26,025 bases of DNA from assembly GCA_905234205.1 (NCBI GenBank), contig CAJOGG010000001.1, positions 6,697 to 32,721 of the forward strand, in the 5' to 3' direction. The notes under the pieces were generated by a model. It searched no databases and was not told where the DNA came from. It saw only the letters and a list, made by a program, of their open reading frames with translations. The DNA comes from an uncultured Synergistales bacterium. GTDB taxonomy: Bacteria > Synergistota > Synergistia > Synergistales > Aminobacteriaceae. Numbering within the stretch: the stretch's first letter is position 1; each line of letters starts with the position of its first letter. The position numbers and the translations under genes are program-made. Shown one piece after another: positions 3,238 to 25,186 of this stretch.

Positions 3238-3265
3238 TTTACAGATTCAAGAATTTGTGTATAAT
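3238..3265 (+). promoter_or_regulatory. promoter of the substrate-binding protein
   Basis: TTTACA (3238-3243) and TATAAT (3260-3265) with a 16-nt spacer, about 45 nt before the gene start; a GGAGGAG ribosome-binding site follows at about 3298-3304. Confidence 0.55.
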
Positions 3266-3313: not shown

Positions 3314-4114
3314 ATGAAGAAACTTTTTGTAGCAGCAGTGTTAATGTCATTCATGGCAAGCGCATGTTTTGCAGACGGATTGAATATTTCCAAGCCTAGT
3401 GAGTTTGTGAATTACAAGATCGGTACACAAAGAGGAACCATAGCCGAGGGAATAGCCAAAGATATGTTGGGCGACAAAGCTAAGGAACAACTTACGACTT
3501 ACGAAAAAGCCACAGACGTCATTCAGGCTCTTAAGGTTGGAAAAATTCAGGGCGCGATCATGGACGAAGCACCAGCAATTCAATTTTACAAGAACGATCC
3601 TGAAGTGTTGAAGATTTTGCCAGAGCCTCTCACAACTGAACAATATGCAATCGGATTCAAGCAGGGAAACAAAGAACTATTAGAGCAAGTTAATAAAGCT
3701 CTCGCTGAGATCAAAGCCGACGGATCACTCGAGAAAATCATGTTGAAGTATAAAGAAGACCCCACAGCCGCAAAACCTGAAGACATTGACCTTCACAAAG
3801 GAGCTAAGGGCGGGAAATTATATCTTGGAACAGAGTCAGGCTTCCCTCCTTACGACATTAAAGTTGGGGACGGGTACACTGGAATAGATATTGAAATGTG
3901 CGCACTTATCGCCGGGAAACTTGGTAAGGAACTCGAAATTATCGCTTATCCGTTCGACTCGTTGTTTATGGCTGTGAACAGTGGTAAGGTTGATATGATT
4001 TGTGCAGGCATTACAGTGAACGAGGAGAGGAAATTGTTCACTGACTTCTCTGATCCATATGAAGACGCCAAGCAAGTTGCAGTAGTTTTAGTTAAAGATT
4101 ACAAAGCTGACTAA
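3314..4114 (+). CDS. secreted amino-acid-type substrate-binding protein, lobes circularly permuted
   Basis: 266 residues with a signal peptide (MKKLFVAAVLMSFMASACFA, probable cleavage after residue 20) and a strong ribosome-binding site. It belongs to the SBP_bac_3 family that delivers polar amino acids to ABC transporters, but the order is reversed. Residues 31-146 are the usual second half: YKIGTQRGTIAEG, DVIQALKVGKIQGAIMDE, then the usual C-terminal helix ALAEIKADGSLEKI. A linker (about 147-167) leads to the usual first half at 168-262: KLYLGTESGFPPYDI, GIDIEMC, SGKVDMICAGITVNEERK, FTDFSDPY. Ligand-type residues are kept: Gly41-Thr42 and Asp84 in one lobe, Arg239 in the other. The new termini fall at the inter-lobe hinge. 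No permease or ATPase gene is adjacent, so it is an orphan here; substrate unknown. Confidence 0.85.
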   Translation: MKKLFVAAVLMSFMASACFADGLNISKPSEFVNYKIGTQRGTIAEGIAKDMLGDKAKEQLTTYEKATDVIQALKVGKIQGAIMDEAPAIQFYKNDPEVLKILPEPLTTEQYAIGFKQGNKELLEQVNKALAEIKADGSLEKIMLKYKEDPTAAKPEDIDLHKGAKGGKLYLGTESGFPPYDIKVGDGYTGIDIEMCALIAGKLGKELEIIAYPFDSLFMAVNSGKVDMICAGITVNEERKLFTDFSDPYEDAKQVAVVLVKDYKAD

Positions 4115-4150
4115 TAATTCACTCATTCACAATTTTTATTACAAACAACA

Positions 4151-4185
4151 AAACCCCGACGTAACAGCCGGGGCTTTATTTATCT
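4151..4185. terminator. bidirectional intrinsic terminator
   Basis: CCCCGAC (4154-4160) pairs with GCCGGGG (4167-4173) with one mismatch. CTTTATTTAT follows on plus, and TTTTGTTGTTTG on minus. It separates the convergent binding-protein gene and the minus-strand membrane protein. Confidence 0.75.
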
Positions 4186-4199
4186 GAAGGAGGTGCGGT

Positions 4200-4556
4200 T
4201 TACTCTGCAAGCTTCTTTAATGCTTCGACTCTAGCTTTCTGTGCCTCAACCTGTGCTTCAAGATAGGCAAGCTGGTCTTCTTCGGTCTTGACTGATTGTG
4301 TGAAACGCTCCGAGAATTTATCGGATAATGATTTCAAGTTAGCAAAATCTGCTTTGAGATCTGCAACATCTGGAAGTCCTCCCTGTTCAAGCTTCGTGAT
4401 TCTCTGCTCAAGAGCTGTCATTCCTGCTTTGACTTCATCAAGTCTGGGAGTGAATTTACTCTGGAGAATCGTCCACATAATATTAAGTGCAAGGATCACA
4501 CATACAATTCCGATAATTATCGCTTTCTTCTTGTCTACAGCTTTCTGTTCGCTCAT
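4200..4556 (-). CDS. hypothetical small membrane protein with coiled coil
   Basis: 118 residues; I do not recognise a family. A basic N-terminus (KAVDKKK) precedes one transmembrane helix at about residues 12-30 (AIIIGIVCVILALNIMWTI). The rest is a charged, heptad-like coiled coil: DEVKAGMTALEQRITKLEQ, then AYLEAQVEAQKARVEALKKLAE at the C-terminus. The topology is most simply a single anchor with the coiled coil on the outer side. A good ribosome-binding site (GGAGG, 10 nt) supports translation. It follows the rplL terminator on the same strand and has no obvious promoter of its own, so it may depend on read-through. Confidence 0.6.
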   Translation of the reverse strand: MSEQKAVDKKKAIIIGIVCVILALNIMWTILQSKFTPRLDEVKAGMTALEQRITKLEQGGLPDVADLKADFANLKSLSDKFSERFTQSVKTEEDQLAYLEAQVEAQKARVEALKKLAE

Positions 4557-24463: not shown

Positions 24464-25186
24464 ATGTTGAATTCGTTATTAATCGTTGCATCATTTATTT
24501 CTGTATTTCCTGCGCCTATTCGTGATTGGAACGGTAAGAACTTGCGTTATTTCTGCCTCATGCTTCCAATTGTGGGTTTTGCGTTCGGGACATGCTGGTG
24601 GATTATGTGGCTGTTGCTTGTGAAATTTTCGGCACTCTCTGAAATTCTCCGCGGTTTCTTGATGACTCTATGCACTCTCGCGTTAACAGGCGGGCTTCAT
24701 ATGGACGGCCTTATGGATACTTGCGACGCTATATTCTCGCGACGAGACAGGCAAACGCGGCTCAAGATCTTATCCGACACTCACGCTGGATCATTTGCCG
24801 TAATGGGTTGCGTTATAGTTCTTATGGCCAAGACTTTGTTATTTGCAGAGTTATTTTCCAGGGACGTCAACTTATTCTTTGTGCCCGTATATTCGCGCTT
24901 AGGAATGGGAGTGTTGCTCAACAATTTACCCTTCGCAAAATCCGACGGCCTTGCAGTAATGTTAGGTTCGTCAAGAAATTCACGGGATAATTATTTTTTC
25001 GCGTTAATGTTCATCGTGCTGTTGTTCGTGAATCAATTAATAGCCGTAACTTTGGCCGCAAGCTTCATAATCTGGTCGCGAGTCTGCACAAAAATTTTCG
25101 GAGGCATAACCGGCGATTTATTGGGAGCGTTCGTTGAAATTTCAGAGTTATTTATCTTGATGATTGTCGTTTTCGTCTGCGCTTAA
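24464..25186 (+). CDS. cobS: adenosylcobinamide-GDP ribazoletransferase (cobalamin synthase)
   Basis: 240 residues, an integral membrane protein that joins adenosylcobinamide-GDP and alpha-ribazole at the end of B12 assembly. The signature TGGLHMDGLMDTCDAIFSRRDR, followed by LKILSDTHAGSFAVMGC, corresponds to the CobS 'GglHlDGlaDt.DG......r..aleImkDs..G.fg' motif with its metal-binding Asp residues. About six hydrophobic segments follow. The N-terminus, with FPAPIRDWN, also fits the family ('t..P....'). No Shine-Dalgarno sequence is present; see the adjacent promoter. A cobU-like gene lies 288 nt downstream. Confidence 0.9.
   Translation: MLNSLLIVASFISVFPAPIRDWNGKNLRYFCLMLPIVGFAFGTCWWIMWLLLVKFSALSEILRGFLMTLCTLALTGGLHMDGLMDTCDAIFSRRDRQTRLKILSDTHAGSFAVMGCVIVLMAKTLLFAELFSRDVNLFFVPVYSRLGMGVLLNNLPFAKSDGLAVMLGSSRNSRDNYFFALMFIVLLFVNQLIAVTLAASFIIWSRVCTKIFGGITGDLLGAFVEISELFILMIVVFVCA

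Follow-up and report, generated by a model that had tools for sequence, protein, structure and literature searches.

A natural SBP_bac_3 binding protein with its halves in swapped order, and its relatives in Synergistota

The stretch of DNA analysed here, in its full length of 26,025 nucleotides called the window, comes from an uncultured Synergistales bacterium (assembly GCA_905234205.1, contig CAJOGG010000001.1, positions 6,697 to 32,721). Its open reading frame (ORF) 3314-4114 encodes a substrate-binding protein (SBP) of the family SBP_bac_3 in which the two halves stand in swapped order, so that the half running from the hinge to the C-terminus (C) comes before the N-terminal half (N). In the following we describe the gene and its orthologs, the wider lineage of swapped proteins in Synergistota, and the role that we think most probable for the protein.

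Results

The Pfam profile SBP_bac_3 (PF00497) matches the protein with 107.8 bits against a cut-off of 26.4, in two stretches, the better of which places residues 171-259 on profile positions 3-91 of 132. The models of NCBIfam give the same picture, since the first half (23-146) matches positions 139-259 of 266 in a canonical cystine SBP model and the second (164-258) positions 21-116 of 250 in TIGR01096. The printed PDB alignments are likewise swapped, with AncQR chain 9-102 on query 166-258 and chain 114-230 on query 30-146. When the sequence is rotated back it gives one unbroken alignment to canonical binding proteins, and the score with AncQR becomes 138.2 bits, against 129.7 in two pieces. 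The curated NCBIfam cut-offs (HisJ/ArgT, GlnH, TcyJ and others) are not reached; the best, TIGR01096, scores 117.6 bits, or 122.9 rotated, with a cut-off of 256.35. Because the order N before C fails both in the query and in all 32 orthologs described below, we regard the protein as a permuted variant of SBP_bac_3 rather than an ordinary member. The first-pass annotation, made from the letters of the window, had read the lobe order as reversed, and the alignments bear it out. Its numbering of Thr42, Asp84 and Arg239, positions which we take to be ligand contacts in GlnBP-like proteins, is correct in the alignment, and so is the new linker that it placed between the halves, but this measures 18 residues by hidden Markov model (HMM) and not about 20 (Table 1).

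Table 1. Features of the swapped gene and its surroundings in the window, and permuted proteins fused to permeases in other genomes
Feature	Position	Strand	Basis or remark
Circularly permuted SBP_bac_3 gene	3314..4114	+	ATG to TAA, 266 aa; profile and PDB alignments
First half, formerly C-terminal (from the hinge on), with T42 and D84	residues 29-147, 3398..3754	+	HMM
New linker, old C-terminus to old N-terminus	residues 148-165 (18 residues), 3755..3808	+	HMM
Former N-terminal half, now second; holds R239; its end is the former hinge strand	residues 166-258, 3809..4087	+	HMM; model strand 250-259
Putative signal peptide, signal-peptidase I type, ...FA/DG	residues 1-21, 3314..3376	+	sequence; inferred cleavage site
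Promoter-like TTTACA-16-TATAAT, 48 bases before ATG	3238..3265	+	11/12 consensus positions
Terminator-like hairpin between this gene and convergent ORF 4200-4556	4147..4180	.	14-pair stem, T tail; listed on minus strand only
12 tandem permuted SBP modules and permease, ATPase ORF next	L128:3857-13603 (G053:C39)		smaller versions in other genomes of genus
Permuted SBP, permease and ATPase in one 899-residue chain	L129:5995-8691 (G122:C6)		Pfam
1 module: L090, L130, L131, L145, L129 (L129 with permease and ATPase in chain)			domain scan
2 modules: L137, L142, L146			domain scan
3 modules: L136, L144			domain scan
4 modules: L139, L140, L143, L089 (one L089 module damaged)			domain scan
6 modules: L088, L132, L133, L134, L138			domain scan
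7 modules: L091			domain scan
8 modules: L085, L086			domain scan
12 modules: L128, 3249 residues			domain scan

A structure prediction, which the first-pass annotation had proposed as a check, gave a single compact protein (AlphaFold2; predicted local distance difference test, pLDDT, 93.2; predicted template modelling score, pTM, 0.85) and not two half domains that do not interact. The predicted fold is the two-lobed type II binding fold, and the 50 fold matches listed comprise binding proteins, enzymes related to them and LysR effector domains. A type I binding protein is absent from these 50, which excludes nothing. The Foldseek superpositions are poor, with root-mean-square deviations (rmsd) of 4.8-20 Å over the 50 matches listed there, as is expected because the query is permuted, and the ATP phosphoribosyltransferases among the Foldseek matches were taken as sharing the common fold only.

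A scan of genome contigs with query-specific patterns gave 36 loci, of which 32 hold orthologs and four come from other phyla. The orthologs are 78-91% identical to the query; the titles of their records read Synergistaceae, Synergistales or Fretibacterium, and a ruminant or the rumen is mentioned in 27 of the 32. Each of the 32 fetched orthologs shows the swapped order, which the first-pass annotation had wanted sought in related genomes, and because they come from many assemblies a rearrangement in assembly is excluded. The gene is under strong purifying selection, linker included: compared with 22 orthologs, the ratio of nonsynonymous to synonymous change (pN/pS) has a median of 0.088 for residues 22-262 and of 0.074 for the linker (residues 149-166), and synonymous change over residues 22-262 is saturated in 20 of the 22 pairs. 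T42, D84 and R239 are conserved in 11 of 11 alignment rows of these close orthologs (family a) and in 5 of 5 rows of a sister family (family b).

A survey of 185 Synergistota genomes from 62 genera, with families split by their identity to the query, shows that the gene belongs to a larger lineage, a point that had escaped the first-pass annotation. Among the matches listed, family a (at least 78% identity) is found in 39 genomes, namely 35 of the 43 of the window's genus (g1) and all four of genus g11; family b (51-59%) in 39 of the 43 (partial in G055 and G063), in the four of g11 and in a single genome from each of g5, g8 and g10; and family c (39-46%) is present too, in some genomes as two neighbouring genes. 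A domain scan of the fetched loci L075-L084 and L094 gave the order C-N throughout, in five loci of family b and six of family c. With fusions counted, permuted proteins occur in at least 8 of the 62 genera (g1, g5, g8, g10, g11, g15, g19 and g33), as stand-alone genes, as operons of SBP, permease and ATPase, and as fusions of 1-12 tandem swapped modules to a permease. The genome of the window itself has two more swapped paralogs, L002 and L003, the latter following ATPase and permease ORFs. These two belong to a divergent branch, together with L075:6987-7811, L075:7893-8723 and L088:15554-16375. In four of its proteins that were aligned (L002, L003 and one each of L075 and L076) equivalents of T42, D84 and R239 are absent, and the ligand of this branch is therefore probably not a plain amino acid.

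Outside Synergistota four plasmid relatives were fetched, out of 15 listed of 457; they are canonical and serve as controls, with GlnP of Enterococcus faecalis reading N-C-N-C and the other three N-C. The four genome-scan matches from other phyla (L042-L045) are canonical as well, found with patterns that are specific for the query. The canonical SBP L093 has no match at E <= 1e-40 in the 43 genomes of the window's genus, against matches in 56 of the 185 Synergistota genomes, and the permuted forms may have replaced it in the genus. Another locus, L004-L007 (G000:C152), carries four tandem canonical SBP_bac_3-like ORFs, each with an N-terminal hydrophobic segment, behind an ORF that presumably resembles UvrB.

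The phylum was also searched with the 513-residue fusion L090, which gave matches in 47 of the 185 genomes at E <= 1e-30, unfused permeases included. Forty places (20 + 20) were fetched, and they held 27 permuted proteins longer than 400 residues (Table 1), four of which (L087, L135, L141 and L147) are cut by a contig end and give no full module count. In those scanned with Pfam (L085, L088, L090, L128 and L129) the C-terminal part is a permease, BPD_transp_1. The permease probe is matched by 26 of the 27, and L129 matches the ATPase probe too. In 21 of the 27 there is an ATPase ORF at most 500 bases away, and L129 has the ATPase in its own chain; none was found for L087, L089, L135, L146 and L147. 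In all fetched loci together, 52 of 53 permuted ORFs above 400 amino acids (47 distinct) match the permease probe, and the remaining one is cut by a contig end. The modules in the 12-module protein are 23-63% identical to each other, and because they have diverged this far they are not copies made by assembly. Across 14 aligned modules from the arrays, D84 and R239 are not constant, which fits different ligands for different modules. The ATPase ORFs beside the arrays are mostly 355-377 residues long, and the one that was scanned (L086:13909-14979) has no Pfam match past about residue 210.

Apart from the cut stretches L126 and L147, the arrays open with a C half and close with an N half. In proteins with at least three C halves, where some loci overlap or repeat the same protein, the gap from C to N is 17-19 residues in 140 of 140 cases, and from N to C it is 1-50 residues in 111 cases. 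Over 79 modules, the pairwise distances of the N halves correlate with those of their own preceding C halves at Pearson r 0.84 and with those of the next C halves at r 0.38. A two-module AlphaFold2 model (33 sequences, pLDDT 90.3, pTM 0.55) has segments with pLDDT below 50 only at 1-3 and at 239-244, the latter between N1 and C2. Of the 50 fold matches to solved chains listed for it, 44 map onto one C-N module and one spans both, and the five canonical chains that lie across N1-C2 superpose only at 10-11 Å rmsd despite 23-30% identity. Linker lengths, half-to-half correlation and the predicted structure thus show that the swapped C-N pair is the unit of the arrays. An array of ordinary N-C modules with an odd half at each end is ruled out by the same three lines.

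For a tree, thinning by identity kept 72 rows of 211 permuted modules and 22 of 39 canonical ones, and one long row, L129, was not included. Three changes of order are required on the free quick tree. A tree that unites all 71 permuted rows is 5.0 log units better than the free quick tree and is not rejected (approximately unbiased test, p-AU 0.58). In an earlier FastTree the permuted rows fell into two groups, again with low support, the best split having 0.465. These trees are compatible with one origin of all permuted modules but do not prove it.

Around the gene, the promoter-like site has the same TTTACA and TATAAT hexamers with the same 16-base spacing in front of 16 of the 32 orthologs, and TATAAT alone in 30. 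Shuffled upstream regions reach 9 of 12 consensus positions in 0.42 of the cases, and the weight is therefore put on the identical hexamers and not on the score. The FA motif of the signal peptide is kept in 32 of 32 orthologs. A Cys stands before it in only 21 of 32, which rules out a lipoprotein as a conserved feature. None of the 20 other window ORFs scanned with Pfam is a component of an ATP-binding cassette (ABC) transporter, and the scan found no conventional copy of the gene beside it; the first-pass annotation had called the gene an orphan, which agrees with this, and had named such a copy as a sign of artefact. In 21 of the 32 ortholog loci (within L016-L041) the family-a gene is preceded on its own strand by a gene of cobalamin synthesis (cluster c2, TP_methylase), and with one exception the two are no more than about 215 bases apart. 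In the window no cobalamin gene adjoins, and a CobS ORF lies about 20 kb away (24464-25186).

Discussion

We think that the protein is a periplasmic amino-acid receptor for an ABC importer encoded elsewhere, that is, a permuted and soluble SBP_bac_3 protein with the permease of family b as its likeliest partner, and would give this a probability of about 0.74. The permutation point is the first crossover between the lobes, with the old termini joined by the linker and the new ones at the hinge, and the exported protein would fold into two lobes held by one covalent crossover instead of two. It would close on an amino acid between the lobes, and then dock to the permease and deliver its ligand. 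The family-b permease is suggested as partner by the identity of its own SBP to the window protein (51-59%); the family-b SBP has its own permease and ATPase in four of the five loci fetched, and 39 of the genus's 43 genomes carry this permease.

Several observations weigh against this. The family-b permease was not found in the window's assembly, where the best matches are 32% and 31% identical. The former belongs to an operon (C36) whose SBP is without the canonical ligand residues, and the latter (C53) lies beside a canonical SBP. Thirty genomes of the genus reach 90% completeness with no more than 5% contamination; the family-b permease is in 29 of them, and the window's (92.8% complete) is the sole exception; three less complete ones (G057, G071 and G082, 64-83%) also have family a without family b. 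We have slightly lowered our confidence, since no other genome with good coverage lacks the proposed partner. The L002/L003-type paralogs of the same genome lack the ligand residues, so that another ligand is expected there, and the upstream cobalamin gene in 21 of the 32 ortholog loci is not explained by amino acids. It may be that the family-a gene is co-transcribed with the cobalamin genes, but the conserved promoter-like site speaks against that.

The protein could instead be a sensor, a periplasmic partner of a chemoreceptor or other membrane receptor to which it signals its ligand, and this we consider unlikely. It would account for the lack of ABC components in the window and for the absence of the likeliest permease from the assembly; moreover, a match to the ATPase or permease probe lies within 3 kb in only 3 of the 32 ortholog loci (L014, L016 and L029, that of L016 being a MalK-type ATPase by Pfam), and a gene of cluster c12 lies within 7 kb in four (L013, L018, L022 and L036), the member in L013 being a hybrid histidine kinase. 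Transport is nevertheless likelier than sensing, because branches of the lineage are fused to ABC permeases, with permease-probe matches in 52 of the 53 long permuted ORFs, or stand in operons with them, as the sister family b does in four of five loci; no fusion to a signalling domain was met among the few proteins scanned with Pfam. Binding-protein folds have also been turned to other roles, as in cyclohexadienyl dehydratase and MltF, and canonical relatives of that kind are among the NCBIfam and PDB matches. That the window protein is such an enzyme or a structural protein is very improbable to us, with the ligand residues kept in all family-a rows, transport or ancestral binding proteins as the top PDB matches, and family b in ABC operons.

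The swapped order is exactly what would remain of a tandem binding protein with both ends cut off, and debris of this kind, or an assembly rearrangement, is the explanation to which we give next to no chance. The order in 32 orthologs from many assemblies, a pN/pS of 0.09 at saturated synonymous sites and the conserved promoter-like site rule out a pseudogene or an artefact. The first-pass annotation had judged the gene to be no debris and its product to be working and cleanly permuted; the former holds on these grounds, and the latter is supported by the compact model, the selection on the linker, the retained ligand residues and the promoter-like site. As to the origin, the permutation probably came from a tandem N-C-N-C binding protein that lost its first N half and its last C half. 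What is left resembles the C half of a first domain followed by the N half of a second, and P0001 has one stretch whose alignment crosses the SBD1-SBD2 junction of GlnPQ. A point against such a history is that the fetched Synergistota loci, in which no search was aimed at it, showed no ancestor of tandem N-C-N-C form.

The window protein is most like the SBP_bac_3 binders of polar amino acids (GlnH, HisJ, ArtJ, TmArgBP and AncQR), in profile, predicted fold, ligand-type residues and rotated alignment, and differs in its opposite halves and in that no NCBIfam cut-off is reached before or after rotation. OpuAC, the glycine-betaine binder of Bacillus subtilis, resembles it in fold and order only; the identity is 14%, OpuAC binds betaines, and there is no Pfam OpuAC match up to E = 1. 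According to PMC4990184, TpMglB-2 (Tp0684), a glucose-binding protein of Treponema, is likewise a periplasmic binding protein permuted in nature, with ligand binding and a change of shape retained, but it has the type I fold, a sugar ligand and another break point. The permuted sugar-binding proteins of its class ("type Ic") are marked by swapped strands in the N-lobe, and none is among the 50 fold matches listed for the window protein. Binding proteins permuted by engineering for Förster resonance energy transfer (FRET) sensors, cited by title as ref. 53 of PMC7683729, follow the same principle, but are artificial. GlnPQ-type importers (PMC8025302) have tandem binding domains fused to the permease as the Synergistota fusions do; their halves are in canonical order, as in the E. 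faecalis homolog (N-C-N-C), and they have two domains per chain, whereas the Synergistota fusions have 1-12 swapped modules. Natural permuted binding proteins are in print for TpMglB-2 and for the glycine-betaine group. A search of open-licence papers, whose silence is weak evidence, found neither a natural permutant of the amino-acid-binding family nor an importer in which one chain has three or more fused binding domains.

Conclusions

It is a tentative thought, to which we give somewhat less than even odds, that Synergistota have evolved their own class of ABC importers from permuted modules, with up to 12 diverged modules in a permease chain, that the permutation is what enables this, and that the window protein is a detached soluble member. 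If so, a complex with two permease chains would have as many as 24 receptors, differing in specificity, above a single channel. As a chain enters a module at the hinge by one lobe and leaves by the other, modules could be joined head to tail and neighbours could feel each other close, and the window protein would broaden what such a transporter can take up. In annotation, a permutation of this kind would be hidden by half matches or by a label such as "tandem SBP". In one lineage the permuted form has been retained, has branched into several families and has been strung together up to 12 times on a single permease, and the lineage would thus be a natural test of the role of the two hinge connections in these receptors, and of how many receptors one ABC importer can use.
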